Made by a program: the position numbers and the translations under genes
Source of the DNA: an uncultured Ruminococcus sp.
GTDB lineage: Bacteria > Bacillota > Clostridia > Lachnospirales > Lachnospiraceae
DNA: 64,000 bases
Assembly (NCBI GenBank): GCA_904377845.1
Contig: CAJFGR010000019.1
Location: 1 to 64,000, forward strand
Direction: 5' to 3'
Notes under the pieces: model-generated
The model's input: only the letters and a program-made list of their open reading frames with translations
Told to the model about the DNA's origin: nothing
The model's database searches: none
In this document: piece by piece, positions 1 through 64,000 of the stretch
How the letters are laid out: every line of letters begins with the position of its first letter
Numbering within the stretch: position 1 is the stretch's first letter

Positions 1-62
1 GCTCCTATGTACCGCTGCGTTACGGCCCGAGCGAAAGCGGGTGCGCTAGCAATACCTGCCTC

Positions 63-91
63 CCGGCGGATACTTTATCAGTCCGGAAAAT
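63..91. repeat. 29-bp dispersed repeat, copy 1
   Basis: This 29-base stretch recurs without mismatch at 9268-9296. Each copy begins and nearly ends with CCGG and holds GATA-CTT-TATC, so it can fold into an imperfect hairpin. This copy lies just past the 3' end of sigK (minus strand), and the other lies past groEL. The rest of 1-99 is GC-rich sequence in which I recognise nothing. It may be a REP-like intergenic repeat or a shared terminator-type element; only two copies are visible here. Confidence 0.6.
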
Positions 92-99
92 CGGAATTT

Positions 100-729: not shown

Positions 730-858
730 GATGACACCTCTTAGCACATTTGATATAGTTTATGAAAAAAACAGAAAGATTGTGCTTTTCCACTTAAAAG
801 ATGGACGATATCATGACTTGACATTTAAGCAAAAACCGTTTTGCTGACTGAATAATCC

Positions 859-887
859 TTGACACCTGGCTACTCATAAGATATCAT
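859..887 (+). promoter_or_regulatory. sigma-A promoter for comM-dprA-topA, with leader hairpin
   Basis: TTGACA (859-864) and TATCAT (882-887) are separated by 17 bases. The leader of about 140 bases contains a 9-bp hairpin, CCGGGGAAA / TTTCCCCGG (900-920), without a following T-run. It is the only convincing promoter before comM. Confidence 0.65.
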
Positions 888-1032
888 AATTATACATTCC
901 CGGGGAAATCTTTTCCCCGGCAATCCTGCCTTTGAGGGAAGGCATCTGATCAATTCGATCGGGAAATTCAGATTTTAGTCAGTATGTATTTGCGTGTTGT
1001 ATTGTGCAGAGCGCGCCGGGAAAGGAGCGCAG

Positions 1033-2580
1033 ATGAGTTTCAATACAGTTTTGTCTGCTGCTATTGAAGGTATTAAAGCAGAGTTTGTCAGGGTGGAAGC
1101 TGATGTGTCAAACGGACTTCCGGTGTTTCATATGGTGGGATATCTGTCGTCGGAGGTAAAAGAGGCAGGAGAAAGGGTTCGCACTGCAATTAAAAATTCC
1201 GGGTATGAATATCCGGCAAAGCGTACGGTAATCAATCTGTCGCCGGCGACGCTCAGAAAGCGAGGGGCATCTTTTGATCTTCCGATTGCAGTGTCGATCC
1301 TGGCGTCACTGGGGCAGATTCCGGCGGGAAGAATGGAAAAATGCCTGATTATCGGAGAACTGAGCCTCAACGGCCGGGTGAGAAAAGTACCCGGAATCCT
1401 GCCGGTGGTGATGGAGGCGATGGAACATGGGATTACCCGCTGTATTATCCCCATGGAGAATGCGGCAGAGGGCGCACTGGTCAAGGGAATGCAGATTGTG
1501 GGCGTGGAAAGTCTGCAGGGAGCGGTTGATTTTCTGAGAAAGGGAGTACAGGTACAATGCGCAGATCCTGGAAGGAGTTCGGGCGGAGAGAGGATCTTGT
1601 CGGGAACAGACGGAAATATCCCTGATTTTTCTGAGCTCAGAGGTCAGGAAAATGTAAAGAGAGCGGCTGAAATCGCAGTATCAGGGGGACACAATCTTCT
1701 CATGATCGGGCCTCCCGGAAGCGGAAAATCAATGACTGCAAAGTGCATAGCAGGCATTCTTCCGCCGCTGGATATGAAGGAAAGCATGGAAATTACCAAG
1801 ATATACAGCGTGCTGGGGCTTTTAAAAGATGAGTCGCCTTTGATACGGACAAGACCTTTCAGGGAAGTGCATCATACAGCGACAAGGGCAGCCCTGATTG
1901 GTGGCGGCGTAATACCGAGACCCGGAGAAATAAGTCTTGCACACAAGGGCGTACTATTTCTTGATGAACTGCCTGAGTTTAGAAAAAATGTATTGGAAGT
2001 ACTGCGTCAGCCTCTGGAAGAACGCAGTATCCGTATATCCAGAACATATGGCAATTATGCATTTCCGGCAGATTTCATGCTCGTAGCGGCGATGAATCCG
2101 TGTCCCTGCGGGAGTTATCCTGATCCGGAAAAATGCACCTGTACACCGGCTCAGATTCAGATGTATTTAAGCAGAATCAGCCAGCCTTTTCTGGACCGGA
2201 TTGATTTGTGCGTAGAAGCCCCGAAAATCAGATATAAAGATCTGACAGAAACGAGGAGAGTGGAGTGCTCGGAAGAGATAAGGAAACGGGTATGCACGGC
2301 GAGAGAGATACAGAAGGAGCGCTATCAGGGGACAGATATCACAACGAATTCAGGTCTGGGACATGAGGAACTGAAACGTTACTGTTGGCTGGGTACAGCT
2401 GAAAGCAGGCTGATGGAGCAGGCGTTTATAAAGATGGATCTGTCGGTGCGAGGGTACTACAGGATTATTAAGACGGCGCGTACAATTGCTGATTTGGACG
2501 GCTCAGAGCAGATTCTGGAAAAGCATCTGCACGAGGCTCTCGGATACCGTATGATAGACAGGAAGTACTGGAGGAAATAG
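1033..2580 (+). CDS. comM: YifB/ComM family Mg-chelatase-like AAA ATPase
   Basis: This 515-residue member of the ComM/YifB family, AAA+ ATPases related to Mg-chelatase subunits, is implicated in other bacteria in branch migration during natural transformation. The N-terminal Lon-protease-like ChlI domain (about 1-170) is followed by Walker A GPPGSGKS near residue 226, Walker B VLFLDELPEF near 306, and the cysteine-rich NPCPCGSYPDPEKCTC near 355. The C-terminal Mg-chelatase domain ends in MIDRKYWRK. I prefer the ATG at 1033, preceded by AAAGGAG, over an in-frame upstream start at 994. dprA follows after two bases, so this is a ComM-DprA-TopA operon, a common clostridial order. Length is normal. 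Confidence 0.92.
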   Translation: MSFNTVLSAAIEGIKAEFVRVEADVSNGLPVFHMVGYLSSEVKEAGERVRTAIKNSGYEYPAKRTVINLSPATLRKRGASFDLPIAVSILASLGQIPAGRMEKCLIIGELSLNGRVRKVPGILPVVMEAMEHGITRCIIPMENAAEGALVKGMQIVGVESLQGAVDFLRKGVQVQCADPGRSSGGERILSGTDGNIPDFSELRGQENVKRAAEIAVSGGHNLLMIGPPGSGKSMTAKCIAGILPPLDMKESMEITKIYSVLGLLKDESPLIRTRPFREVHHTATRAALIGGGVIPRPGEISLAHKGVLFLDELPEFRKNVLEVLRQPLEERSIRISRTYGNYAFPADFMLVAAMNPCPCGSYPDPEKCTCTPAQIQMYLSRISQPFLDRIDLCVEAPKIRYKDLTETRRVECSEEIRKRVCTAREIQKERYQGTDITTNSGLGHEELKRYCWLGTAESRLMEQAFIKMDLSVRGYYRIIKTARTIADLDGSEQILEKHLHEALGYRMIDRKYWRK

Positions 2581-2582
2581 GA

Positions 2583-3674
2583 ATGAAATACGAATTCTGG
2601 ATGGCGGGTATAAATGGAATACGACCGGAGAAAAAAGTTATGCTCAGAGAGCGAATGAAAACGGCAGAAGCGATTTATTATATAGAAGAAACACAGCTGC
2701 AGAAATATGAGTTCTTGAATGACAATGACAGAAATAAAATAATGCAGGCGCAGAAAAATACTTCGTTCCACGAAGAATATAGAAAAATGCTGGAAAAGGG
2801 GATCCGGTTTCTTCCGTACTATGACGCTGAATATCCGAAAAGGCTCAGAGAGATAGAAGATTATCCGTATGCGCTTTATGTGAAAGGAAGTATACCGAGA
2901 AAAGATACAAAGAAGGCGGCGGTTATCGGGGCAAGGCGCTGTACGCCTTATGGTGAAAAGTACGCCATTGATTTTGCAAAGGCTCTGGCCGAGCGCGGAG
3001 TGGAGATCATCAGCGGTATGGCAAGAGGAATTGACGGTATGGGGCATCGAGGAGCCCTGCTTGGAGGCGGCAGAACATATGCTGTGCTCGGATCCGGAGC
3101 GGACGTTTGCTATCCAAGAGAGCATATAGGTCTTTATGTTGATATTATGGAACAGGGTGGCGGAATTATTAGCGAACAGCCTCCGGGAACAGCACCTCTG
3201 GCAATGAATTTCCCGGCGCGTAACAGGATTATAAGCGGGCTGTCGGATGTAATCCTTGTTATGGAGGCGGGACAGAAGAGCGGATCGCTCATAACAGTTG
3301 ATCTGGCTCTTGAACAGGGGAGGGATGTCTATGCTCTGCCGGGTCCGGTTAACAGCATATTGAGCGACGGGTGTAACCGTCTGATCCGGCAGGGCGCCGG
3401 AGTTCTGTTGTCTCCGGAGACCTTTCTGGAAGAGTGGGGAATAGAAAAAGAAGCAGAGGAAGGAGGCGGTAAAAAGAAAGTCAAAAATGAAAAAAAACTT
3501 GAAAGTGCAGAAAAATTGGTGTATAGTTGTCTCGGTTTGTATCCGAAGAACCCGGATCAGATTGTAAGTGAAACAAAACTGGAAATTAATGAAGTCCTTG
3601 CAATGCTGGTATCTCTGGAATTAAAGGGATATGTCCGGGAAATATCGAAGAATTATTATGTAATATCAGAATAA
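2583..3674 (+). CDS. dprA: DNA-processing protein DprA
   Basis: This 363-residue protein of the DprA/Smf family binds single-stranded DNA and loads RecA during transformation. The central Rossmann-like domain is clear, with AAVIGARRCTPYGE, IISGMARGIDGMGH, VLGSGADVCYP (near residue 170) and NFPARNRIISGLSD. The last 65 residues form the winged-helix domain seen in many DprA proteins. The gene starts two bases after comM and is followed closely by topA, implying co-transcription. Between the domains is a lysine/glutamate-rich linker (about residues 290-310). Nothing is missing. Confidence 0.93.
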   Translation: MKYEFWMAGINGIRPEKKVMLRERMKTAEAIYYIEETQLQKYEFLNDNDRNKIMQAQKNTSFHEEYRKMLEKGIRFLPYYDAEYPKRLREIEDYPYALYVKGSIPRKDTKKAAVIGARRCTPYGEKYAIDFAKALAERGVEIISGMARGIDGMGHRGALLGGGRTYAVLGSGADVCYPREHIGLYVDIMEQGGGIISEQPPGTAPLAMNFPARNRIISGLSDVILVMEAGQKSGSLITVDLALEQGRDVYALPGPVNSILSDGCNRLIRQGAGVLLSPETFLEEWGIEKEAEEGGGKKKVKNEKKLESAEKLVYSCLGLYPKNPDQIVSETKLEINEVLAMLVSLELKGYVREISKNYYVISE

Positions 3675-3709
3675 AAGGCATAAACCTGCCAATGGAGGGA
3701 GTCAGATAT

Positions 3710-5788
3710 ATGGCGCATTATCTTGTTATCGTGGAGTCACCTGCGAAGGTAAAAACGATTAAAAAGTTTCTGGGAAGCAATTATACGGTTGCGGCATCAC
3801 AGGGACACGTAAGAGATCTTCCGAAGAGTTCGCTCGGCATCGACATTGAGCATGATTATGAGCCGAAGTATATCACGATAAGAGGCAAGGGAGACATTCT
3901 TGCCAGTCTGAGAAAGGAAGTTAAAAAATCCGATAAAGTATATCTGGCAACCGACCCTGACCGGGAAGGAGAGGCAATTTCGTGGCATCTTGCTGCTGCA
4001 CTTAAGCTTGATGACAAGAAAATGCGGCGCATTACATTTAATGAGATTACGAAAAATGCGGTAAAGGCTTCATTGAAAGCTCCGAGAAGCATTGATATGA
4101 ATCTGGTAGATGCGCAGCAGGCAAGGCGTGTCCTTGACCGTATGGTGGGATATATGATAAGCCCGATCCTATGGGCGAAAGTAAAGCGCGGACTGAGTGC
4201 GGGGCGTGTTCAGTCTGTTGCGCTTCGCCTTGTGGCAGACCGGGAAGAGGAGATCAATGCTTTTATACCGGAAGAATACTGGACCCTCGATGCCGCGCTC
4301 AGAATTAAAGGTGAGAAGCGTCCGCTTATAGCCAGATTTTACGGCACAGATAAGAAAAAGATTATGATCCGCTCTGAAGAAGAATTAAAAGAGATTCTTC
4401 GCAAAATCGAAAACGAGGAATTTAAGATCACAGATATCAGGACTACGGAGCGTATCCGGAAGGCACCGCTGCCTTTTACAACGAGTACGCTTCAGCAGGA
4501 AGCAGCAAAAGCGCTGAATTTCGGAACGCAGAAGACGATGCGCATTGCCCAGCAGCTATATGAAGGTATTGATATCAAGGGAGACGGAACGGTCGGTGTG
4601 ATCACCTATCTGCGTACAGATTCAACAAGAATCGCAGATGAGGCGGATGTAGCTGCAAGAGAATATATTTCTGCAAATTATGGAGCAGAATATGCAGCCG
4701 CCAGACAGGCAAGCCCCGCCGGCGATAAAAAAATACAGGACGCGCACGAGGCCATCCGTCCGACTGATATAACACGGACTCCGGCATCTCTTAAAGATTC
4801 CCTGACAAGAGACCAGTTCAGGCTGTATCAGCTTATTTGGAAGCGCTTTGCAGCAAGCCGCATGAATCCGGCGCGTTATGAGGCGACGTCGGTTAAGATT
4901 TCAGCGGGAGAGTACTGTTTCACAGTCGCTGCTTCCAAGCTGTTGTTTGACGGTTTCCGTTCTGTGTACACAGAGGCAGATGAGGAAAAGGAAGAGAGTA
5001 ATGTGCTTGTGGGCCATCTGAGTATGGATTCTGTCCTTACGAAGGAGGAGCTTGATCCTAAACAGCATTTTACACAGCCCCCGGCGCATTACACGGAGGC
5101 CAGCCTTGTAAAGGCTCTGGAAGAGCTGGGAATTGGCCGCCCGAGCACTTATGCTCCGACAATTTCTATTATTCTGGGACGCCGTTATGTGACAAAAGAG
5201 GCGAAAAATCTTTATCTGACCGAGATTGGGGAAGTAGTAAATAATATGATGAAACAGTCTTTCCCCAGCATTGTGGATGTGAATTTTACTGCCAATATGG
5301 AAGGTCTTCTCGATATGGTAGAAGAAGGAAAAGTAGCGTGGAAAGAAATTATCCGCAACTTCTATCCGGATCTCGAAGAGGCGGTACAAAAAGCCGAAAA
5401 AGAGCTTGAGACAGTTAAAATAGAGGATGAAGTTACAGATGTTATCTGTGAAGAGTGCGGAAGAAATATGGTTATCAAGTACGGCCCGCATGGAAAATTC
5501 CTTGCATGTCCGGGCTTTCCGGAATGCCGTAATACAAAGCCGTATCTTGAAAAAATCGGAGTCCCCTGTCCTGTGTGCGGCAAAGATGTCGTAATCCGTA
5601 AGACGAAGAAAGGAAGAAAGTATTACGGATGTGAGAATAATCCGGAGTGCGAATTTATGTCCTGGCAGAAACCGTCCAGAGAAAAATGTCCGGAGTGCGG
5701 CGGATATATGGTGGAAAAAGGTAATAAACTGGTCTGTGCAAATGAAAAATGCGGTTACGTTACCACTTTGAACAAGAAGAAAGAATGA
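3710..5788 (+). CDS. topA: DNA topoisomerase I
   Basis: Type IA topoisomerase of 692 residues that relaxes negative supercoils. The Toprim domain opens with YLVIVESPAKVKTIKKFL and includes ATDPDREGEAISWHL near residue 81. The catalytic tyrosine lies in VITYLRTDSTRI near residue 299. The C-terminus (from about residue 580) has three C4 zinc ribbons, beginning CEECGRNMV. I chose the ATG at 3710, placed behind AGGGAG; the earlier in-frame ATG at 3692 overlaps that ribosome site. Third gene of the comM operon. Complete. Confidence 0.95.
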   Translation: MAHYLVIVESPAKVKTIKKFLGSNYTVAASQGHVRDLPKSSLGIDIEHDYEPKYITIRGKGDILASLRKEVKKSDKVYLATDPDREGEAISWHLAAALKLDDKKMRRITFNEITKNAVKASLKAPRSIDMNLVDAQQARRVLDRMVGYMISPILWAKVKRGLSAGRVQSVALRLVADREEEINAFIPEEYWTLDAALRIKGEKRPLIARFYGTDKKKIMIRSEEELKEILRKIENEEFKITDIRTTERIRKAPLPFTTSTLQQEAAKALNFGTQKTMRIAQQLYEGIDIKGDGTVGVITYLRTDSTRIADEADVAAREYISANYGAEYAAARQASPAGDKKIQDAHEAIRPTDITRTPASLKDSLTRDQFRLYQLIWKRFAASRMNPARYEATSVKISAGEYCFTVAASKLLFDGFRSVYTEADEEKEESNVLVGHLSMDSVLTKEELDPKQHFTQPPAHYTEASLVKALEELGIGRPSTYAPTISIILGRRYVTKEAKNLYLTEIGEVVNNMMKQSFPSIVDVNFTANMEGLLDMVEEGKVAWKEIIRNFYPDLEEAVQKAEKELETVKIEDEVTDVICEECGRNMVIKYGPHGKFLACPGFPECRNTKPYLEKIGVPCPVCGKDVVIRKTKKGRKYYGCENNPECEFMSWQKPSREKCPECGGYMVEKGNKLVCANEKCGYVTTLNKKKE

Positions 5789-5808
5789 AAGATTGATTGA
5801 ATTGCATT

Positions 5809-5823
5809 GCTATTCTGAAAATT
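5809..5823. promoter_or_regulatory. CodY-box-like site upstream of codY
   Basis: GCTATTCTGAAAATT matches the CodY consensus AATTTTCWGAAAATT at 12 of 15 positions. It lies 82 bases before the codY start, a position that would suit autoregulation. The match is seen in the sequence; the function is inferred. Confidence 0.45.
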
Positions 5824-5905
5824 GTGTGATAACATAGAACTATCTAGCAATTTGTCGGGATTTGTATATACAATTGTGATATACAGAAGATATGCGGAGG
5901 AAATA

Positions 5906-6685
5906 ATGAGTGTACAATTATTAGACAAAACAAGAAAAATTAATAAACTGCTCCATAACAATAATTCGAGCAAGGTTGTATTTAATGATATCTGTGCGGT
6001 TCTGACCGAGATCCTTGACTCGAATGTTCTTGTGGTCAGCCGGAAAGGAAAGATTCTCGGCGTAAGTAAATGTCCGAGCGTGAAAGAAATTCATGAATTG
6101 ATCACCGAGTCAGTCGGATCCCATATCGATGCAATGTTAAATGAGCGTCTTTTGAGTATTCTTTCTACGAAAGAAAATGTTAATCTGGAAACCCTGGGCT
6201 TTTCTCCGGAAGCGGTAGAGGGATATCAGGCAATCGTTACGCCGATTGATATTGCAGGAGAACGTCTCGGAACACTTTTTATCTATAAACAGAATGCAGT
6301 GTATTCTATTGACGATATTATTCTCAGCGAATACGGTACCGCTGTGGTTGGTCTTGAAATGCTTCGCTCTGTAAATGAAGAGAGCGCGGAAGAGACTAGA
6401 AAAGAACATATTGTTCAGTCGGCTATCGGAACACTGTCTTTCTCGGAGCTTGAAGCGATTATTCATATTTTTGACGAGCTGGGGGGCACAGAAGGTATTC
6501 TGGTTGCGAGCAAGATTGCCGACAGAGTCGGTATTACCAGGTCTGTAATTGTAAACGCCCTGCGGAAATTTGAAAGTGCGGGAGTGATTGAATCCCGCTC
6601 TTCAGGTATGAAAGGAACTTATATTAAGGTTCTCAACGACTATGTATTTACTGAACTTGAAAAGATAAAAAAAGAGCGTATGTAA
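5906..6685 (+). CDS. codY: GTP-sensing global repressor CodY
   Basis: CodY senses GTP and branched-chain amino acids and represses nutrient-scavenging genes in low-GC Gram-positives. The protein is 259 residues, the usual length, beginning SVQLLDKTRKINKLL. The N-terminal GAF domain covers about 1-155. The C-terminal winged helix contains ASKIADRVGITRSVIVNALRK from about residue 200. The ATG at 5906 behind GGAGG was chosen; a frame extension upstream to 5822 lacks a ribosome site. It is preceded by a CodY-like box and stands just after topA, though probably with its own promoter. Confidence 0.96.
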   Translation: MSVQLLDKTRKINKLLHNNNSSKVVFNDICAVLTEILDSNVLVVSRKGKILGVSKCPSVKEIHELITESVGSHIDAMLNERLLSILSTKENVNLETLGFSPEAVEGYQAIVTPIDIAGERLGTLFIYKQNAVYSIDDIILSEYGTAVVGLEMLRSVNEESAEETRKEHIVQSAIGTLSFSELEAIIHIFDELGGTEGILVASKIADRVGITRSVIVNALRKFESAGVIESRSSGMKGTYIKVLNDYVFTELEKIKKERM

Positions 6686-6701
6686 ACTGGAGGACTGAGA
6701 T

Positions 6702-7028
6702 ATGTACGAAGGAAATCCTGTTGATCTTAGAATGGAAAAAATTCTGTCTGCTGATGGTATTTTTGATGATTCGACACGGCAGTGCAGAGTTCGCAAATAT
6801 GATCCGGAGGAAGATTTTATCTATCTGGAACTCAAAGAAGATAAGTTGGAGACGATTTCTCTGGATGCCAAATACAGATGTTACATATCTACGAGAACAG
6901 AGCTTCTGTATTGCACAGGCGTGGTGAAAGAGAGATACCGCCAGGAGGATAAAAACCTGTTAAAGTTCAGAATTGAGAATGGGTTTTATAATGTATATGA
7001 AGGAAGAAAAATGACGAAACGTGCCTGA
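6702..7028 (+). CDS. Small PilZ/YcgR-N-like protein, function unknown
   Basis: A 108-residue protein with no signal peptide or membrane segment. The pattern IYLELKEDKLETISLDAKYRCYI followed by CTGVVKERY and FRIENGFY resembles the short beta-barrel of YcgR-N/PilZ-like proteins found in clostridia. I do not see a clear c-di-GMP binding RxxxR...D/NxSxxG motif. It starts 16 bases after codY behind GGAGGA and is likely co-transcribed with it. Its stop codon lies in the loop region of the terminator at 7018-7042. Family assignment is tentative. Confidence 0.7.
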   Translation: MYEGNPVDLRMEKILSADGIFDDSTRQCRVRKYDPEEDFIYLELKEDKLETISLDAKYRCYISTRTELLYCTGVVKERYRQEDKNLLKFRIENGFYNVYEGRKMTKRA

Positions 7029-7042
7029 GGGCACGTTTTTTT
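7018..7042 (+). terminator. Rho-independent terminator after codY unit
   Basis: AACGTGCC (7018-7025) pairs with GGCACGTT (7030-7037), followed by a T-run to 7042. The hairpin overlaps the stop codon of the preceding small gene. Confidence 0.85.
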
Positions 7043-7063
7043 GCTCATTTACAGGCGCTCAGC

Positions 7064-7126
7064 TCATCTGAATATCAGTCGCCGGATTCTTATGCAAGCA
7101 TAAATCCGTCTCCTGATATCAGATGA
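7064..7126. repeat. 63-nt nested inverted repeat upstream of groES
   Basis: TCATCTG-A-ATATCAG (7064-7078) pairs with CTGATAT-CAGATGA (7113-7126), with one bulged base. The interior can extend the stem with CGGAT/ATCCG and TTATGC/GCATAA. It lies between the terminator and the groES promoter, so it is not an obvious part of either transcript. Role unknown. Confidence 0.5.
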
Positions 7127-7166
7127 CTGAACTGTTACAGAAAATATAAAAACCTTGTAAACTGTG

Positions 7167-7195
7167 TTGACAAATTTAAAACGGAGTGCTATTTT
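7167..7195 (+). promoter_or_regulatory. groESL sigma-A promoter
   Basis: TTGACA (7167-7172), 17-base spacer, TATTTT (7190-7195). The CIRCE operator lies directly downstream, the usual arrangement for HrcA control. Confidence 0.8.
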
Positions 7196-7208
7196 ATATT
7201 CATGAGGC

Positions 7209-7235
7209 TTAGCACTCGTAAGAAATGAGTGCTAA
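7209..7235 (+). promoter_or_regulatory. CIRCE operator (HrcA binding site)
   Basis: Perfect CIRCE: TTAGCACTC, nine bases, GAGTGCTAA. It predicts HrcA-mediated heat-shock control of groES-groEL. hrcA itself is not in the window. Confidence 0.97.
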
Positions 7236-7261
7236 CAAAACAAAATCAAGGAGGAATTACA

Positions 7262-7549
7262 ATGAAGTTAGTACCATTAGGTGACAAAATTGTTTTAAAA
7301 CAGTTAGAAGCAGAAGAGACAACAAAATCCGGTATCGTTCTTCCGGGACAGGCAAAAGAAAAACCCCAGGAAGCAGAAGTTATCGCTGTGGGACCGGGTG
7401 GAAATATAGATGGAAAAGAAGTCGTAATGCAGGTAAAAACCGGCGATAAAGTAATCTACTCCAAATATGCAGGCACAGATGTTGAACTTGACGGAGAAGA
7501 ATATATCATCGTAAAACAGAATGACATTTTAGCAATTGTTGAAGAATAA
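7262..7549 (+). CDS. groES: Co-chaperonin GroES
   Basis: A 95-residue GroES that caps the GroEL folding chamber. MKLVPLGDKIVLKQ, SGIVLPGQAKEKP, GDKVIYSKYAGTDV and the C-terminal DILAIVEE are characteristic. The ATG at 7262 lies behind AAGGAGG; an upstream in-frame extension to 7229 runs through CIRCE and was rejected. It is the first gene of the CIRCE-controlled operon, with groEL 27 bases downstream. Confidence 0.97.
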   Translation: MKLVPLGDKIVLKQLEAEETTKSGIVLPGQAKEKPQEAEVIAVGPGGNIDGKEVVMQVKTGDKVIYSKYAGTDVELDGEEYIIVKQNDILAIVEE

Positions 7550-7558
7550 AAACATTAA

Positions 7559-9199
<1,641 letters not shown>

Positions 9200-9219
9200 T
9201 TTCATATTCGTAATATATA

Positions 9220-9256
9220 GAGTGAAGAGGATAACAACTCTTCGCTCTTTTATTTT
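9220..9256 (+). terminator. Terminator after groEL
   Basis: GAGTGAAGAG (9220-9229) pairs with CTCTTCGCTC (9238-9247) with one G-U pair, followed by a T-rich run. Confidence 0.8.
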
Positions 9257-9267
9257 CGAATTAATTG

Positions 9268-9296
9268 CCGGCGGATACTTTATCAGTCCGGAAAAT
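9268..9296. repeat. 29-bp dispersed repeat, copy 2
   Basis: Identical over 29 bases to positions 63-91. It follows the groEL terminator and precedes the guaB promoter. It holds the same imperfect CCGG...GATA-CTT-TATC...CCGG hairpin. Confidence 0.6.
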
Positions 9297-9382
9297 GCTA
9301 TTTTATAGACACATAAGCACCGCTTATAAATAAAGCTTAAAATAAATCAAGTCTGATTCATGGCTGCTTCGGCTGAAAATGG

Positions 9383-9411
9383 TTGACATCTTCATTGAAT
9401 TTCGTTAGTAT
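9383..9411 (+). promoter_or_regulatory. guaB promoter
   Basis: TTGACA (9383-9388), 17-base spacer, TAGTAT (9406-9411), about 65 bases before the guaB start. I saw no purine riboswitch in the leader. Confidence 0.65.
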
Positions 9412-9430
9412 ATCAGTTAAATATTTATAA

Positions 9431-10930
<1,500 letters not shown>

Positions 10931-10947
10931 ATAACAGATATTCAAAA

Positions 10948-10977
10948 AAGAATCCTGTTCTGCAGGGTTCTTTTTTT
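10948..10977 (+). terminator. Terminator after guaB
   Basis: AAGAATCCTG / CAGGGTTCTT hairpin with a five-base loop and a T-run. Confidence 0.85.
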
Positions 10978-11054
10978 ATAAATTCATAAGATTTTGTTCA
11001 CTTCCGCTACAGAATTATCTGCTATTATCATAAATTGGAAGGCGGGGCTTACAG

Positions 11055-11681
11055 ATGAAAAAACATAAGAAGAACGGATACTTAATATGGGGGATGATTA
11101 TTCTTGTAATTCTGACTCTCGTGCTTGCCGTGAGGGGATTTACGTCGCTCGGCACGGGGTATATTAATGCGGATGCATCAGAGCCGGATCTGGATGTGCA
11201 GCTTCTGGACGTCAATCCCTATTCGAGACCGGGGATACAGAGCAATGGGATTACCGGCATTGTGATCCATTATACAGCCAATCCGGGAAGTACGGCGCAG
11301 GAAAACAGAGATTATTTCAACGGACTTCAGTACTCGCATGAGACGTCTGCCAGCAGTAATTTTATTGTGGGACTTGACGGAGAGATTATACAGTGCGTTC
11401 CGACATGGGAAGTGGCTTATGCATCCAATGACAGGAATTATGATACGGTATCTATTGAGGTGTGTCATCCGGATGAAAGCGGAAAGTTTACGGATGCGAC
11501 ATATCGATCTCTCGTACAGCTTACCGCATGGCTGTGTGTAAAATTCAATCTTACATCGGAGGATGTGATCCGGCACTATGATGTGACTGGAAAAAACTGC
11601 CCGAAATATTTTGTAGAACACGAAGATGCATGGGGGACATTTAAAGAAAATGTGAGTCTTGCTATCGCATCTGAAAATTGA
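11055..11681 (+). CDS. N-acetylmuramoyl-L-alanine amidase (Amidase_2), membrane-anchored
   Basis: Predicted zinc amidase that cleaves the MurNAc-L-Ala bond of peptidoglycan outside the cell. In its 208 residues an N-terminal membrane segment (about 9-27) is followed by an amidase_2/PGRP domain. Zinc-ligand motifs are visible: VIHYTANPG near residue 70, and RHYDVTGKNCP with His and Cys near 173-183; SIEVCHPDESG is also conserved. There is no binding repeat. It precedes a shikimate kinase fusion with about 50 bases between, so the two may share a transcript. Its role could be sporulation or growth; I cannot tell which. Confidence 0.85.
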   Translation: MKKHKKNGYLIWGMIILVILTLVLAVRGFTSLGTGYINADASEPDLDVQLLDVNPYSRPGIQSNGITGIVIHYTANPGSTAQENRDYFNGLQYSHETSASSNFIVGLDGEIIQCVPTWEVAYASNDRNYDTVSIEVCHPDESGKFTDATYRSLVQLTAWLCVKFNLTSEDVIRHYDVTGKNCPKYFVEHEDAWGTFKENVSLAIASEN

Positions 11682-11730
11682 TATAATATGATGGTTGTAT
11701 ACGTCGATTTTGCAGATGTGGAGGAAGAAC

Positions 11731-12516
11731 ATGAACGATTTGGAAATGTACCGGGAGCAGCTGGCGCTTTGTGATGATAAAATCATAGATGCACTTGTTG
11801 AGCGAAACGGTATTGTAGAGAAGATCATGACTTATAAAGAGACATACGGAATGCCGATTCTGCAGCCTGCACAGGAGGAAAAGCAGCAGAAACGTCTTGA
11901 TGATAAACTTCGGGACAATAAATACCGGGAAGAAATTCAGGATGTGTTCAGCCGGATTCTGAGAAACAGCAAACGCATTCAGGCAAGAAAACTGTTCCCA
12001 TATAATATCGTTCTTATCGGTTTTATGGGAGCCGGAAAGTCAACTATATCGGATTATCTGAGTACCGTGTTTGATATGCGGCTGGTGGAGATGGACCAGG
12101 AGATCTCCGAGCGCCAGGAAATGAGCATACCGGATATCTTTGCGACTTACGGGGAAGAATATTTCCGTAATCTTGAGACAGAACTCCTGAAAGAACTTCA
12201 GGCCGGAAGCGGCTGCATAATATCCTGCGGAGGCGGTGTTGCTCTCCGCGAGGAAAACGTGGTGGAAATGAAGAAAAACGGAAGGGTTGTCCTTCTTACG
12301 GCCAGCCCGGAAACGATTTACGAGCGGGTGAAAGACAGCAATGACAGGCCTCTTCTTAAGGGGAATAATAATGTAGAGTTCATTGCGGATTTGATGGAGA
12401 AGCGCAGGGAAAAATACGAGGCTGCGGCCGATGTTGTGATACAGACGGACAACAAGTCGATTCTTCAGATCTGTGAGGAACTGATCACAAAGCTCATGAG
12501 GTTGGATGTAGAATAA
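11731..12516 (+). CDS. Bifunctional chorismate mutase-shikimate kinase
   Basis: Two aromatic-amino-acid enzymes in one 261-residue chain. Residues 1-85 look like an AroQ-type chorismate mutase (YREQLALCDDKIIDALVERN and the later QEEKQQKRLDDKL). From residue 90 there is a shikimate kinase with P-loop GFMGAGKST (97-105), EMDQEISERQEMSI, ETELLKEL, SCGGGVALRE and NDRPLL. The ATG at 11731 behind GAGGAA gives the mutase its normal start. The stop overlaps the next start as TAATG. The order of the domains places steps five and branch-point of the same pathway in one protein. Confidence 0.88.
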   Translation: MNDLEMYREQLALCDDKIIDALVERNGIVEKIMTYKETYGMPILQPAQEEKQQKRLDDKLRDNKYREEIQDVFSRILRNSKRIQARKLFPYNIVLIGFMGAGKSTISDYLSTVFDMRLVEMDQEISERQEMSIPDIFATYGEEYFRNLETELLKELQAGSGCIISCGGGVALREENVVEMKKNGRVVLLTASPETIYERVKDSNDRPLLKGNNNVEFIADLMEKRREKYEAAADVVIQTDNKSILQICEELITKLMRLDVE

Positions 12517-13025
12517 TGTTTGAAAGATTTTTTCCGGATGAATATGTGGCCTCCACATATGTTATCCCATTCGAAAAACTGTATGAGGAAGGTTACAGGG
12601 GAGTTATTTTTGATATTGACAATACGCTGGTACCTCACGGGGCGCCGGCTGATGAGCGCGCAGTAAAACTGTTCCGAAAGCTGGAAAATATCGGATTCTC
12701 ATCCTGTCTGATCTCAAACAATCAGGAACCGAGAGTGAAAATGTTCAATAAGGACATTGGTACAAACTATATTTTTAATGCACATAAGCCCTCAACAAAA
12801 AATTATGTCAGGGCAATGGAGATAATGGGAACCGACAAAACCAATACAGTCTTTGTCGGAGACCAGCTGTTTACGGATGTGTGGGGAGCAAAAAGGGCGG
12901 GAATTCACAATATTCTCGTGAAGCCGATACACCCCAGAGAAGAAATTCAGATTGTGTTAAAAAGGTATCTGGAGAAGATCGTTCTTCATTTCTATAAAAA
13001 AAGATTGAAAAATAAGGAAAATTAG
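12516..13025 (+). CDS. YqeG family HAD-type phosphatase
   Basis: A 169-residue HAD hydrolase of the YqeG/PhoP2-like (HAD IIIA) family. The nucleophile motif is FDIDNTLVPHG near residue 32, motif II is the SNN of LISNNQEP, and motif IV is VFVGDQLFTDVWGA. Substrate is unknown for this family, though it commonly sits beside aroK or efp in clostridia as here. It overlaps the preceding gene by one base. Confidence 0.88.
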   Translation: MFERFFPDEYVASTYVIPFEKLYEEGYRGVIFDIDNTLVPHGAPADERAVKLFRKLENIGFSSCLISNNQEPRVKMFNKDIGTNYIFNAHKPSTKNYVRAMEIMGTDKTNTVFVGDQLFTDVWGAKRAGIHNILVKPIHPREEIQIVLKRYLEKIVLHFYKKRLKNKEN

Positions 13026-52727: not shown

Positions 52728-57400
<4,673 letters not shown>

Positions 57401-58254: not shown

Positions 58255-61200
58255 ATGAGAAAAGTAAGAGCCTTGCTGGCAGCGGTACTGGTGTGCGGAC
58301 TCTTATTAAAAGGCGCGGATGTATTCGGAGCGGACATTCCGAAAATACAGGTGTCCTCCGGGACGACAGAAGCGGCGCCCGGAGAGAAAATTACACTTAC
58401 ATTTTCGCTTGCCGGCTATGATGATATTCAGGAGGGAATCTACGCGCTGAAAGCAACTATTGAATACGATCCAGATATATTTGAGGCTGTGGAGGAGCCG
58501 GATTTTGAGACATTGTCCGGCTGGGAACAGCTTCAGTATAATGCCGATAACGGGCAGTTTGCAGTGATCAATAAAAGCGGGAGCGTGAAGAACGAAGACG
58601 CGTTCCGGCTGACGCTGACAGCAAAGGCCCAGGCTGAAATAAAAGAGACGACAATTCTGCTAAAGGGCATCTCCGTATCTGAAGGAAAAGAAGATATTTT
58701 CCTGAAGGATACTGAATTTCAAATGACAGTGAATTCAGATGAACAGCCGGAGAACGGCGGCGGGGAGGGCGTGCTGGAAGACCCGGATGAAACGCCGGAG
58801 GATTCGGATAAAGAGACGGAAATCCCGGAAGAAAATTCGGAGGAGACACTGGATGGAGCGGATGCAGATCGTGAGGATTCAGCGGAGCTGCCTTCGGAAC
58901 AGCAGTCCGAGGAAAAGCAGAGTATACAGACAGGTAACACTGACGTCGGGATAATCTTTTTTATTATGATGCTGCTGGTTTCTCTATCGATATTGGGAGG
59001 AATCCTAATTACCAGGACAAGAAAGAAAAAACAGAATAAGAATGGCCCTAAGTTACTTGCCGGGCTGATCCTCTGCAGTGTGCTTGCCGTATCGGCGGGC
59101 GTCCGAACGGAGGCGGCAGCAGAAAAGGGCGATGTAGACGGAAACGGGAATATAGATTATACAGATGTGGAACTGATTCAGAGGCATCTGATCGAACTGC
59201 AGCTTCTCGAGCAGGACGCACAGGAACCGGCGGATATCAATGATGATGGGCAGCTTACAGTGACTGACTTGGCGCTTCTCGTCCATAGGATAGAAAATCC
59301 GCCGGAATCTGAGAACCCATCAGGGCCGTCAGAACCTGAGAAGCCTTCAGACCCGGAGGAGGAGATACAGGAGGCCATTGAGCTGAAGGATGTCACAGAT
59401 ACAACTCTGTATTATAGCGGAGACGGAAAGACAGAAGAAATAGACATACTGGATATTACAAAAGGGCTTCCGAAAGATCCGGAGAATTACTTTGCAGTGA
59501 TCGGGATGGAGAGTCTGCCGGATCTTTATACGGGGATTTCGGAGTTCAGACAGGAGAAAAGCGGAACAGTTTCGGCGGTGATCGATCAGGCGGATGTGAT
59601 CCGGTATGATGCTGACGGAAATCGCATAGAAGAGTATGCTTTTCCGGTCGCTTACAGAGATAAAGAAGGTGAGCATCCTCTGATCAAGAGCGCTCAGGAG
59701 CTGTTTGATAAGATGGCCGCTGATTCGAAGGGAACATTTGAGCTTACGGAGGATCTGGACGCTTCGGGGATTTCTGCGGACGCGCCTGCGGTCGCAGGCA
59801 CATTTACCGGGGAGCTGGATGGAAACGGCTTTCGGATACGGAACCTGCCGACTTCATTATTCGGCACGCTGAGCGGGGCGCATATCCATGACCTTGTGAT
59901 CGAGGATGCGGCGGTCACTGCACAGAGAAGCGGAATCCTTGCCAATTTTATCCAGAGACAGTCCATTGTGGAAAATGTTTTCATTGTAGATTCGTCAGTG
60001 TCAAACAGTGTGGATGAGATGGGAGCTTTTGCGGGTAAACTTTCGGACTCGACGATACGCAGAAGTGCCTCTGTCAATGTTTCGTTAAGAGGACTGGTGG
60101 CGGTCGGCGGAATCGTTGGCAGGACGGAGGCGGGAGCTCTTATCGAAGACTGCTATGTTACAGGCAAGGTGCAGGGAACTTACGACCACCCCAGCCTTGG
60201 AGCCAGAACAGGAGGAATCACCGGCTGGCACGGAGGAGGAAAGATCAGCCGCTGTTATACGAATGCGGAGATCATTGCTCCGGCGAAAAAAGGAAACGGA
60301 GGCATTATCGGCGGACCGAATACGGGAAGTCCGGTGATTGAGTACAGTCTGAGTATGAGCACAGGAGCGGGCTACCGGATTGCAGGATTCGACGTTCTGA
60401 ACGGCGTGAAAGAAGTATATGAGTATTCCGGTTCCGGCAGTTCAACAAATGTGACAGAAGCCAATGGAAACAATGTAAAAGAAACAGATGCGGTTTTTGA
60501 TCGGACATTTTATGAGGATATCCTCGGGTTTGACGGAAAAGTCTGGGATCTGGATGGGCTTGCCCTTAAGAAGCTTCCGATACTTTCAGATTCTCCTGTC
60601 GAGGACAACAGTTACGGAATCCCTTCCTATAGTGAAGTGAAAGACCACGAAGACTATCAGGCAGAGAGAGAGACGGCTTATGCCAATATGGCGGAAATCA
60701 TGCCGTTCGCAGACACCGCGCTGTGGGTGGAATATGGAAACGGGCTGTCCGCATCAGATGCCCTTGCAGTTAAAAAGATCAAATATGTACTTCCCCTTGA
60801 TGAGCAGGGGGCGTATGTGGCGGGAATCCACAGGGAAAGCACAGACAGAGCTGTCAAAGTGCGGGTTGTATTTGAAGATGATACGAGGCAGGAATATTCC
60901 CTTACTGAAGCAAAATTAGTGGGAAATATCGTGGCGTCTTACGGAATCGAAGGGCAGCAGTTCCCTTATCAGTTCCATAATTATGCGGCGGCTTTCAATG
61001 AGAGTGTCCTATCCGGTCTGACGGCGCTGGCTTCTGCGTATGACTATAATACAGAAATAGCCGGAATCACGCAGGAGGATGAGAGCCGGCTGTATACGGA
61101 CTATTATAATGAGAGTGTAAAGGGAAAACTGGAGCGTGTGCTGGCGGATCTGTTCACTTCTCAGGAGCGGTATCCGTCCTATTGCGCACACCCGGCTGTG

Positions 61201-64000
61201 AAGGCGCTGACAGAAGAACGCATGAAAGATGAGGAAGAGCTGAAACGCTATCTGTACTCATACAATTATTATGATAAATGGTATCACATCGATTACGATG
61301 GCGTAGTATTGAGCGATCTGATGTTTTTCGGAAAGGAAGTACTGTCGGAGGATATCAATGCTTCTGAGCTTACAGAGCAGCTTCTCAATGCTTCATCGGA
61401 CTGGAGGGCAACGAAACAGACGGTAACATTTTATAACAATGTACTGAAAAATATCACCGGAAAAGATTTTATGGAATTTCTGGGAGGCTTCTCAAAAAGC
61501 ATTGCCGGTTATGAGGATGCAAATGCATGGTTTGCGGATACATTCGGCGGTATCTTAGTAGAGCAGAATGCGGCCGGCGATGAGGGCAGGATCCGATATC
61601 GGATCTGGGACAATCTGAAAGGTCTGCCCGAAAGCAGAAAAAATATTGTTCTGCCTGTCCTGACCGCCCCGCAGGAGGATATGTATCTGATCTCGGTGCC
61701 TTCTCAGATCGTGATTGGAAGTATGAACCGGTACGAGACGTATCTGAAGAAAGACGGGCAGGAGCGGGAGAGAGTCCGCGCCATCGCGGAGGAGTATGCC
61801 GGAAAGATGGGCATATTCTACGGAGTATCATCGCAGTGGATGAGTAATTCAGCGGAGCAGCTGAACAGTTTTGTAAATCTGCAGTTTGATACAAGACTTT
61901 CCTTCCCGGAGAGCCCGGCGGCAGCGGCAGGAGCACAGGAAAAAGGGGTGACTCGCGATCCGGTTATGAAATGGGTATATGAATCGGTCGATATGCTGAG
62001 CGCCCTGAACGGAAGCGCGGCGGTGGCGGACGGCACAATTGTGATCTGGATGTGGAGCCCGGCTCTCGGGACGGATGATTATACGTTCTTTACGTTCAGT
62101 CATGAAACGGCTCACAATCAGGACGGAAAATATTTTTACGGCGGAGCCGGAAGAAGAATCGGAACCGGCGGCGAAGCACATGCGGACGGAAATATCGCGC
62201 AGGAGATGCGGGATGGCATCATGGTGTTTAACATCTCTAAAAAGATGGATATAGGCACAGAGATGACCAATAATTTCAGCTATGAACGGATCAACTCCGC
62301 GGAGAAAGTCCACAGCTACTATAAGAAAATGTTTGAGACGGGATATGTGCTGGATTATCTGGCGGCCCAGGCATTCTTTGAGCTGACACCGCAGCAGCAG
62401 GCGGCGGTGGCTGTACAGGCGGAGCATACCGCAGGCGGAAATGCATCTATGAGCACAACCTATAAAAAGCTTACGGCGGAGGAGATCGGCGCCATGAACC
62501 TGAACAGCATGGAAGCATTGTGGGATCATAAGATCTCCATCCGGAACGCATTCTCTTATCCGGAAAAGGTAGGAACGGCTACAGACGGAAGTTATGGATT
62601 CGAGTCATTTTACACGATGAACTGGTACCAGTCGCACAATGACAGCGGCTCTCCGGACACCCATTCATTCAAGCGGCTGGGGCAGGAGATGCTTGCTCTT
62701 GCAGGTTATGAAAAGGGATATCAGGTATATATATCCGCACTCAGTGAAAATGATCTGGATGCACTGCGCAAGATTACCGGTGATCCGAATATCACATGGA
62801 GGGATTATAAATTGAACCGTTACCGCGATGTGGCGCAGAAGCTGGATCAGATCCCGTATTTTGATAAAGACGCGGTTATTGCGCAGTTTAAGGCAGCATT
62901 TGAGGCAGATACAGCGAATGGGAATACGAACCAGAGCTTTGAAACAAAACGGATGATCTACGGTATGGTCAAGCGTGTAACGGGAGACTTCAGCACCGGC
63001 GGTATTTATGAGAGCCCCGCGGTGATACCGGTCACATCCGCAGAAGAACTGATCCGGTATGCCGCACAGAATCCATATGGGTATTACAGGCTGGAACAGG
63101 ATATAGATTTTACGAATGCAGCAGCCTCCGGCGGAAGCTATATCCCGGGAAGGTTTATCGGTGTGGTGGACGGAAACGGTCACAGCCTGACCGGGATGAA
63201 ATATCCGCTGTTCGGGGATCTGCAGTATGCGCAGGTGACTGACCTGACGATTTCCGCTCCGTCTTATGCGGGGGATGCGCAGGCGCTCTTCGCGATGAAA
63301 ACAAAGAAAGTGACACTTGGAAATGTTAAAGTGGAGGGCGCGGATATGCCGCTCCCCCTTGTGAAGAACAAGACGGAAGGATACTACGAGTACGGCGATA
63401 TGAGCGTGACGGTGGACGACAGGAAAATCACCACAGTGGAGGAATTCCTTGCAATCGGTGATTCTGCCGAATCTCTGAAGAAACAGTACGTACTCGAGAC
63501 AGACCTTGATTTTGGCTCATCGGTGTCTTCTGATTTTGCTGTGACCGGAACATTTTCCGGGGAACTGGCAGGAAACGGTCATACCATATCCGGGCTTGAC
63601 GCAGTTCTTTTTGAAAGAATGGACGGGGCTTCTGTCTCGGACCTGACGATCAAAGGAACGAATCTTACTCAAAATACCCAGAAGGGAGCCCTTGCCAATG
63701 ATATCAGGAATTCGATAGTGGAAGACGTCAGGGTAAAAGACCTGACGATCCAAAACGATACCAATCAGGCGGGAGGGCTTGCCGGAACCATTTCAAACAG
63801 CGAGATCAGGCGGATCTCGGCGGAGAATCTTTCGATCAGATCCAATAATACCATAGGCGGCATTGCAGGCCAGTTTGACGGAAGGATCCTGGAGGACTGT
63901 ATCGTTACCGGCGCCATCGAGGGCACAAGCCGCCATCAGATGGGCGCCCGCATCGGTGGGATCACCGGATGGCAGGGCGGAGGGATCATAAGAAGAGTGG
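58255..64000 (+). CDS. Giant cohesin-like/dockerin/M26 (ZmpB-type) zinc metalloprotease, 3' end beyond window
   Basis: This frame is open from the ATG at 58255 (weak AAAGGA site upstream) to the window edge, at least 1915 codons. In order: signal peptide (about 1-25); cohesin-like domain (about 27-160, with KATIEYDPDIFEAV); acidic linker; a wall-signal-like SIQTGN near 222 followed by a hydrophobic helix (231-250) and RTRKKKQNK; a second hydrophobic segment (267-283) ending TEAAAEK like a signal-peptidase site; a type I dockerin with two calcium repeats, DVDGNGNIDYTDV (near 293) and DINDDGQLTVTDL (near 328); a Pro-rich linker; M26-N/GLUG-type repeats (about 480-720); and the zinc site HETAH (1283-1287) with Glu 1307 in GGEAH. 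GLUG repeats resume from about 1590. Topology puts both cohesin and dockerin outside. M26 proteases cut IgA1 or host glycoproteins; the substrate here is unknown. Confidence 0.85.
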   Translation, partial: MRKVRALLAAVLVCGLLLKGADVFGADIPKIQVSSGTTEAAPGEKITLTFSLAGYDDIQEGIYALKATIEYDPDIFEAVEEPDFETLSGWEQLQYNADNGQFAVINKSGSVKNEDAFRLTLTAKAQAEIKETTILLKGISVSEGKEDIFLKDTEFQMTVNSDEQPENGGGEGVLEDPDETPEDSDKETEIPEENSEETLDGADADREDSAELPSEQQSEEKQSIQTGNTDVGIIFFIMMLLVSLSILGGILITRTRKKKQNKNGPKLLAGLILCSVLAVSAGVRTEAAAEKGDVDGNGNIDYTDVELIQRHLIELQLLEQDAQEPADINDDGQLTVTDLALLVHRIENPPESENPSGPSEPEKPSDPEEEIQEAIELKDVTDTTLYYSGDGKTEEIDILDITKGLPKDPENYFAVIGMESLPDLYTGISEFRQEKSGTVSAVIDQADVIRYDADGNRIEEYAFPVAYRDKEGEHPLIKSAQELFDKMAADSKGTFELTEDLDASGISADAPAVAGTFTGELDGNGFRIRNLPTSLFGTLSGAHIHDLVIEDAAVTAQRSGILANFIQRQSIVENVFIVDSSVSNSVDEMGAFAGKLSDSTIRRSASVNVSLRGLVAVGGIVGRTEAGALIEDCYVTGKVQGTYDHPSLGARTGGITGWHGGGKISRCYTNAEIIAPAKKGNGGIIGGPNTGSPVIEYSLSMSTGAGYRIAGFDVLNGVKEVYEYSGSGSSTNVTEANGNNVKETDAVFDRTFYEDILGFDGKVWDLDGLALKKLPILSDSPVEDNSYGIPSYSEVKDHEDYQAERETAYANMAEIMPFADTALWVEYGNGLSASDALAVKKIKYVLPLDEQGAYVAGIHRESTDRAVKVRVVFEDDTRQEYSLTEAKLVGNIVASYGIEGQQFPYQFHNYAAAFNESVLSGLTALASAYDYNTEIAGITQEDESRLYTDYYNESVKGKLERVLADLFTSQERYPSYCAHPAVKALTEERMKDEEELKRYLYSYNYYDKWYHIDYDGVVLSDLMFFGKEVLSEDINASELTEQLLNASSDWRATKQTVTFYNNVLKNITGKDFMEFLGGFSKSIAGYEDANAWFADTFGGILVEQNAAGDEGRIRYRIWDNLKGLPESRKNIVLPVLTAPQEDMYLISVPSQIVIGSMNRYETYLKKDGQERERVRAIAEEYAGKMGIFYGVSSQWMSNSAEQLNSFVNLQFDTRLSFPESPAAAAGAQEKGVTRDPVMKWVYESVDMLSALNGSAAVADGTIVIWMWSPALGTDDYTFFTFSHETAHNQDGKYFYGGAGRRIGTGGEAHADGNIAQEMRDGIMVFNISKKMDIGTEMTNNFSYERINSAEKVHSYYKKMFETGYVLDYLAAQAFFELTPQQQAAVAVQAEHTAGGNASMSTTYKKLTAEEIGAMNLNSMEALWDHKISIRNAFSYPEKVGTATDGSYGFESFYTMNWYQSHNDSGSPDTHSFKRLGQEMLALAGYEKGYQVYISALSENDLDALRKITGDPNITWRDYKLNRYRDVAQKLDQIPYFDKDAVIAQFKAAFEADTANGNTNQSFETKRMIYGMVKRVTGDFSTGGIYESPAVIPVTSAEELIRYAAQNPYGYYRLEQDIDFTNAAASGGSYIPGRFIGVVDGNGHSLTGMKYPLFGDLQYAQVTDLTISAPSYAGDAQALFAMKTKKVTLGNVKVEGADMPLPLVKNKTEGYYEYGDMSVTVDDRKITTVEEFLAIGDSAESLKKQYVLETDLDFGSSVSSDFAVTGTFSGELAGNGHTISGLDAVLFERMDGASVSDLTIKGTNLTQNTQKGALANDIRNSIVEDVRVKDLTIQNDTNQAGGLAGTISNSEIRRISAENLSIRSNNTIGGIAGQFDGRILEDCIVTGAIEGTSRHQMGARIGGITGWQGGGIIRRV

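Follow-up and report, generated by a model that had tools for sequence, protein, structure and literature searches.

A conserved reading frame of gut bacteria places a cohesin and a dockerin on either side of two hydrophobic segments in an M26 protease: a candidate self-docking surface enzyme

Results

A single reading frame holds cohesin, dockerin and M26 protease modules

The window (the whole stretch of DNA that was analysed, 64,000 nucleotides) ends within a forward-strand reading frame that begins with the ATG at 58255. The frame runs past the window end and reaches its stop codon at 64348-64350 on the same contig, so that the full-length gene, of which a preliminary description had covered the part inside the window, encodes a protein of 2031 amino acids. 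The source genome is a draft assembly of 74 contigs with a completeness of 98.87%. From the N terminus, the protein consists of a signal peptide, a cohesin, an acidic linker, the motif SIQTGN, hydrophobic segment 1, the basic stretch RTRKKKQNK, hydrophobic segment 2, the sequence RTEAAA/EKGD (here and below, a slash marks a proposed cut), a type I dockerin, M26_N, a GLUG motif, M26_C and a tail. The features are located as follows.

58255..64000, + strand: the reading frame as far as it lies in the window (2031 aa in full; stop codon 64348-64350 outside the window)
58255..58332, + strand: N-terminal signal peptide (MRKVRALLAAVLVCGLLLKGADVFGA, aa 1-26), read from the sequence, with an inferred cleavage point
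58333..58734, + strand: cohesin module (aa 27-160; Pfam PF00963 at aa 31-148), by Pfam, with the fold by structure search
58735..58920, + strand: acidic, low-complexity linker (aa 161-222), mostly at pLDDT < 50 and weakly constrained
58921..59040, + strand: putative internal sortase-type sorting signal, comprising SIQTGN (aa 223-228), hydrophobic segment 1 and RTRKKKQNK, from the sequence and its relatives
59041..59121, + strand: hydrophobic segment 2 with an AxA-like end (RTEAAA/EKGD, aa 284-293), whose equivalent is N-terminal in split relatives
59125..59292, + strand: type I dockerin (aa 291-346) with two calcium-loop repeats, DVDGNGNIDYTD and DINDDGQLTVTD, by Pfam, alignment A1 and pLDDT
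59347..59982, + strand: Peptidase_M26_N (aa 365-576), Pfam, 149.5 bits, cut-off 27.7
60097..60171, + strand: GLUG motif (aa 615-639), Pfam, above its cut-off
61003..62754, + strand: Peptidase_M26_C catalytic region (aa 917-1500), Pfam, 126.7 bits, cut-off 22
62101..62175, + strand: zinc site, HETAH (aa 1283-1287) and Glu at aa 1307, read from the sequence
62755..64000, + strand: C-terminal tail with a second M26_N-like stretch, running on to 64347

The preliminary description had claimed that one frame carries a cohesin, two membrane-type segments, a dockerin and an M26 protease, and this was borne out by Pfam scores above the cut-offs. Chance matches to the domain models were ruled out, as the scores exceed curated cut-offs. 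The proposed M26 domain with HETAH and a glutamate at a distance of 20 was likewise recovered by the Pfam M26_N and M26_C models and in the sequence itself, where an HExxH motif is followed by Glu 20 residues after its second His (HETAHNQDGKYFYGGAGRRIGTGGE). Such a motif, with Glu 20-22 residues on, was found in 55 of the 58 M26_C sequences checked. Solved structures related to the protease part come from M26 enzymes, most of them bearing the title IgA1 protease; the best match was 7uvk (E 2e-50, query residues 362-1499). Assignment as an IgA1 protease (ZmpA) proper was rejected at 213.3 bits against the NCBIfam ZmpA cut-off of 3000. The species names of the carriers point to the poultry gut in several cases, and avian IgA is not known to have the human IgA1 hinge, so IgA1 is no obvious target.

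The cohesin scored 33 bits with PF00963, above the Pfam cut-off. The preliminary description had staked its reading on a cohesin fold, and this fold was found by the Pfam model, by AlphaFold2 and by a fold search of the PDB. In an AlphaFold2 model of residues 1-350, mean pLDDT exceeded 90 in 11 of 13 cohesin blocks, and the block means of the dockerin lay between 92 and 98. A structure search with the cohesin matched PDB cohesins, those of Clostridium perfringens first (2vo8, 2jh2, 2w1n). Pilin chains (9m00, 9uvr) also lay near the cohesin in the fold search. The cohesin profile (alignment A3) gave weak matches to PDB sequences, the best being 3ul4 at E 0.012, with no M26 chain among the six listed, and a search of a viral structure library returned no useful match. 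The type I dockerin scored 38.5 bits with PF00404 (cut-off 22.9) and has the duplicated calcium-loop-helix; its model matched all 50 members of alignment A2 at E 0.1. Both calcium loops are kept, and Asp columns 293, 304, 327, 331 and 338 are invariant in all 28 sequences of alignment A1, as is Ala 26 at the end of the signal peptide.

The fused layout is conserved

We searched 58 genomes of the same genus with the whole protein and then read the loci. The cohesin-dockerin module was present in 24 of them, with both modules in one frame in 23; in the remaining carrier (G433) the frame is broken between the modules. A further same-genus genome (G399) has a cohesin fragment alone. For a wider scan of contigs, with one genome per species, two dockerin stretches served as patterns and yielded 63 loci, some of which share a genome and from which the window's own genome records were possibly left out. 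Because this search was seeded with the dockerin, the presence of a cohesin was not built into the patterns. Cohesin and dockerin nevertheless lie in one frame in 53 of the 63 loci, giving 54 one-frame cases with the window; in three loci they fall into broken frames next to each other (L135, L136, L149), and in two into two adjacent frames (L141, L150). The other five have a dockerin without a cohesin within the piece examined (L145, L146, L151, L152, L153). L146 is probably a contig-end piece of a fused gene and no true cohesin-less gene: both L146, at its start, and the cohesin frame L161 of that genome, at its stop, abut a contig end, and the letters there are identical.

Carriers include Mediterraneibacter (M. 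catenae), Sellimonas caecigallum, Ruminococcus turbiniformis and Candidatus Fusicatenibacter merdavium and, by record title, Oscillospiraceae, Bacilli (MAGs) and Tenericutes. M26_C lies in the same frame in 48 of the 54 one-frame cases. Among the six others, two are cut by a contig end (L098, L123), and in three the frame is interrupted and M26 pieces follow in the next one (L099, L117, L125). The sixth, L147, seems truly to be without M26: the gene stops beyond a set of repeat-like regions and is followed by genes that look unrelated. In comparisons with six relatives, dN/dS was 0.15-0.27 for the cohesin, 0.21-0.34 for the junction, 0.14-0.50 for the dockerin and 0.03-0.06 for M26_C.

The junction resembles a sorting signal followed by a signal peptide

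Exactly two hydrophobic segments separate the modules in all 54 one-frame cases, and a basic loop lies between them in every case. The preliminary description had both modules facing outward, and the predicted topology fits: following the signal peptide, the cohesin would lie outside, the basic loop inside and the dockerin and protease outside. This constancy also suits the main rival to a cleaved protein, namely an uncut hairpin in which both segments hold the whole protein in the membrane and the cohesin clasps the dockerin within its own chain, fixing or shielding the protease near the membrane. We consider this rival unlikely.

Segment 1 and its surroundings look like an internal sortase sorting signal. 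An xTG motif stands just before the segment in 37 of the 54 frames (canonical [LI]PxTG in 13, such as LPKTG in L128, L130 and others, LPQTG in L120 and IPNTG in L124; other xTG in 24), and [AS]G[DN] takes its place in six more, a pattern that speaks against the hairpin; the 11 frames without any such motif, L121 and L126 among them, speak for it. The window's own motif, IQTGN, is non-canonical for sortase, with the hydrophobic and basic parts present. In alignment A1 the Gly 227 column is invariant, and the next column is Asp in at least 90% of the sequences and Asn in the window. The signal is internal (aa 223-262 of 2031) and not at the C terminus, the position expected of a sortase substrate; in this it is comparable to the N-terminal motif of streptococcal M26 enzymes (PMC9637739). 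The Pfam Gram_pos_anchor model, applied to 50 members, matched five of them even at E 0.1. The shape is that of an ordinary sorting signal found at the C terminus of a protein from this genus (L088, SVKTGDNTSVIFWGAAVILAAGTAVLARKRKAD), and the window's genome encodes two sortases. With such a motif missing from 11 of 54 frames and non-canonical in the window, wall attachment cannot be general across the family; in the 11 motif-less frames the cohesin is more likely to be membrane-held than wall-held.

Segment 2, for its part, looks like a signal peptide. An AxA-like site precedes the dockerin in 54 of 54 frames, as a loose pattern that would match many sequences, and the proposed cut in the window protein (RTEAAA/E) falls 64 residues past the T of IQTG. 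In split relatives, described below, segment 2 forms the N terminus of the dockerin-bearing protein, as a signal peptide would, and this favours two products over the uncut hairpin. A further point against the hairpin is that streptococcal M26 enzymes are described, in the accessible part of one source, as cut 56 residues past their motif (PMC9637739). The preliminary description had suggested two products, with a membrane-held cohesin and a released protease; the two products thus appear the better reading, and the membrane hold fares less well, since segment 1 looks like a sorting signal and a wall hold is more likely.

Some distant relatives carry the two halves as separate genes

In five of seven genomes searched (G453, G454, G455, G456, G459), a cohesin adaptor frame lies 3-11 bases upstream of a frame that encodes a signal peptide and a dockerin; the pair was not seen in the other two (G457, G458). 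The second frame reaches M26 in three of five with enough sequence (G453, G454, G459). The adaptor frames, of 316-332 aa, comprise a signal peptide, a cohesin of the fused family, an intervening region and a different, C-terminal dockerin. Their cohesins scored 131-140 bits with a model of the fused family, compared with 38-57 bits for other cohesins fetched from the same five genomes. Two further genes follow in G454, encoding an Ig-cohesin-dockerin protein (400 aa) and a cohesin-LPKTG protein (250 aa), and L176 is a four-gene cluster; these split relatives use a stand-alone adaptor together with LPKTG-anchored cohesins. The M26 proteins of the clusters (L141, L176, L179) have HETGH and no Glu at +20, and their zinc site may differ. 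The fused gene looks like a one-piece version of this protease scaffold cluster.

A second kind of relative has the dockerin-M26 gene without the cohesin half. The DNA of L151 and L152 is collinear with that of the fused locus L134 until some 50 bases ahead of the probable start codon (L152), where 972 bases of L134, encoding the signal peptide, cohesin and sorting signal, are replaced by 99. Homology resumes inside segment 2, which is now the N terminus (MKKQISIMISVIIVILIGTVYGVVTA...) of the dockerin-M26 gene, with a ribosome-site-like AAGGAA upstream. Among the three fused relatives compared, upstream synteny of the cohesin-less genes was found with L134 and not with L131 or L129. L150 carries the same dockerin-M26 gene and starts too near the end of its locus for the synteny comparison. 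In a tree of M26_C, L150 and L151 nest beside L131 within the fused clade, which makes loss of the cohesin half the most likely history; L152 was too short for the tree, and this nesting is the one feature we used, the tree having long branches (L141, L128 frame 1-9801, L145, L142 and others). A stand-alone cohesin adaptor is present as well in the genomes of L150, L151 and L152 (G454, G455 and G456); in G454 it lies about 2 kb downstream.

Cohesin and dockerin are candidate partners

That the cohesin and dockerin of the window protein are partners is suggested by comparative genomics and by one of the two AlphaFold2 models. Profile searches of the window's genome found one dockerin and one cohesin over the cut-off. 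A weak cohesin-like membrane protein (G000:C32:43148-43384), with 18.4 bits in the genome search and 21.4 bits as a protein, was considered as the partner of the dockerin and not adopted; same-genus genomes that have no dockerin at E 0.001 (e.g. G402, G409, G423, G438) also give cohesin matches, in frames some 500 aa long. Among the 24 same-genus carriers, 20 showed no other dockerin at E 0.001, and four carry further ones (G411, G412, G431, G440), G411 having nine in all.

A rival reading is docking in trans, in which the dockerin would bind a cohesin on a different protein or cell and other dockerins would occupy the cohesin, so as to form a small surface hub. The single pair of modules in the window's genome and the 20 carriers with no additional dockerin speak against such a hub, and in the split forms it is the adaptor cohesin that scores as a member of the fused family, far above the other cohesins fetched. 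Carriers such as G411, together with the stand-alone adaptors and LPKTG-anchored cohesins of the split relatives, are what the hub would predict; we consider it quite improbable.

For the homologue L130, AlphaFold2 with 50 sequences gave a single-chain model with a mean pLDDT of 86.5 and a pTM of 0.78. By a simple estimate, a free dockerin would give a pTM of 0.63-0.67 and full placement 0.82-0.83, so that 0.78 would need both modules to be placed together, a placement that the uncut hairpin would predict as well. The window protein, modelled with 28 sequences, had a pTM of 0.58, which fits both a placed dockerin and a placed hairpin alone. As the pTM argument is an estimate, only the value for L130 was used as support.

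This predicted joint placement also speaks against a reading without any binding, in which the dockerin serves only as a stalk stabilised by calcium and the cohesin is an adhesin with no relation to it. In some relatives the cohesin half has changed faster than the dockerin, which counts against strict co-evolution and, like the pilins near the cohesin in the fold search, would suit that reading. We give it very little credence, given the frame shared by both modules in 53 of the 63 loci from the dockerin-seeded scan, the adjacent frames in five of seven genomes and the calcium loops with their five invariant Asp columns. An assembly or sequencing artefact that joins two genes can be dismissed despite the draft state of the assembly, since other records show the identical join at 53 loci, some of them from isolates (Mediterraneibacter catenae, Sellimonas caecigallum), and purifying selection extends across it. 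The domains, the conserved layout, the selection across the junction, the natural splits and the predicted joint placement in a homologue are all computed results.

Discussion

The arrangement that we regard as probable is a split surface protease that docks to itself. In this scheme, the N-terminal signal peptide would export the polypeptide, a sortase would cut the internal TG motif (IQT/GN) and link the cohesin to the cell wall, and signal peptidase would cut after segment 2 (RTEAAA/EKGD), giving a protease headed by the dockerin. With calcium, the dockerin would then bind the wall-linked cohesin, either its own or that of a sister molecule. The two cuts would leave a wall-held cohesin and a re-docking protease, and the M26 zinc protease would be displayed non-covalently, 1:1 with its receptor. 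We infer both cuts, the binding, the stoichiometry and the display. We also lean, if only slightly, towards the wider view that one gene supplies both halves of a receptor-ligand pair, for a 1:1 self-assembling display with calcium-controlled release, in a family rearranged among the fused gene, a scaffold cluster of two to four genes and a free dockerin protease. The natural series of fused, split and cohesin-less genes offers material for the study of partner specificity.

In cellulosomes, the cohesin sits on the cell surface and the dockerin on the enzyme. Scaffoldins carry cohesin and dockerin in one chain, yet these are not known to be each other's partners. The window protein shares the cohesin and dockerin family models with these systems and differs in that receptor and ligand are one translation product; a cellulosome or mucinolysome has a multi-cohesin scaffoldin and several dockerin enzymes, whereas the window's genome has one cohesin over the cut-off and one dockerin. 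The window protein also shows cohesin and dockerin serving a single enzyme of gut bacteria, outside a cellulosome. The closest solved cohesin folds belong to the X82 cohesin-dockerin enzymes of C. perfringens, which are secreted, host-targeting enzymes with single cohesins. In that species several secreted proteins bind mutually to form multi-toxin complexes, and an internal sorting signal is not mentioned in the accessible part of the source (PMC12997984). The mucinolysome of Limousia, as described there, is likewise a gut-bacterial system, in which peptidases bear dockerins and a cohesin protein, cSca5, is LPxTG-anchored; it differs in having several scaffoldins and many separate dockerin proteins, and the term "M26" is absent from the main text (PMC12997984).

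The nearest comparison is with the M26 enzymes of streptococci and Gemella (IgA1 protease/ZmpA, ZmpB, ZmpC and ZmpD), which share M26_N, M26_C and HExxH with Glu with the window protein. Streptococcal M26 proteases have two hydrophobic segments. According to the accessible part of a later source, their N-terminal LPXTG is recognised by sortase A and the cut lies 56 residues downstream, compared with the proposed 64 here (PMC9637739). The same part assigns them a G5 domain, of which a Pfam scan of the window protein at E up to 1 found none, and does not mention cohesin or dockerin, both of which the window protein has (PMC9637739). An excerpt of another source states that sortase A attaches the mature M26 enzyme of pneumococcus covalently to the surface (PMC7695701). 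The covalent-link account fits poorly with a cut after the motif, which makes the precedent itself an uncertain one.

The preliminary description had known of no described system of this kind. That stands for the cohesin before the sorting signal and the dockerin after it, and not for the N-terminal sorting motif with a cut downstream, which the streptococcal M26 enzymes were already described as having. Among the literature matches listed (open-licence papers, by titles and the beginnings of abstracts), none names a cohesin-dockerin M26 protein. An M26 sorting motif and cohesin-dockerin anchoring are each already known; new here, as far as these matches show, are both modules in one polypeptide, flanking the proposed cuts. 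With a cohesin before the proposed cut and a dockerin after it, the layout would give a direct answer to how this branch of M26 proteases is held at the surface, and a non-covalent hold is worth seeking in the streptococcal enzymes too.

Divergence and module content of cohesin and M26 proteins

When the related proteins at L059 and L061 were compared with the window protein, the cohesin (aa 27-160) gave dS values of 2.5 and 1.3, respectively, against about 0.4 for the dockerin and about 0.6 for M26_C, and thus recombination seems to exchange the cohesin half of the gene. Part of the M26_N region is repeated in the tail of the window protein (aa 1501-2031), with 44% identity over some 290 aa.

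Proteins with fewer of these modules were also found:

L147 (a relative), 10001-12778: single protein with a cohesin, a dockerin and two hydrophobic segments, terminating without M26
L022 (same genus), 5285-10645, minus strand: M26 paralogue without cohesin or dockerin
L076 (same genus), 4301-9682, plus strand: M26 paralogue without cohesin or dockerin
L078 (same genus), starting at the contig edge: M26 paralogue without cohesin or dockerin
G000:C32:43148-43384 (L005, window's own genome): weak match in a cohesin-like membrane protein of 500 aa with an acidic tail

In L022 and L076, a signal peptide leads into M26_N, and the C-termini, IVQSGNTLE or IVQKGDTLEKETNL, are like a truncated sorting signal. 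Frames about as long as that of L005 also give weak cohesin matches elsewhere in the genus, and some of the genomes concerned have no dockerins.

Elsewhere in the window lies a frame with an unusual C-terminal end:

53708-55492, minus strand: 594-aa frame, presumably a partial family 1 glycosidase joined directly to a BglG/LicT-type antiterminator

It is possibly a recombinant, a decayed gene or an assembly join.

Split-form cluster

The M26 proteins of the relatives' loci L141, L176 and L179, and that of their tree neighbour L128:1-9801, carry HETGH and lack the Glu 20 residues on. One of them, a 3563-aa frame, belongs to a cluster:

L176, 780-14520 (G454): four genes, encoding a cohesin-dockerin adaptor, the dockerin-M26 protease, an Ig-cohesin-dockerin protein and a cohesin-LPKTG anchor

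This cluster is a putative small protease scaffold of its own.
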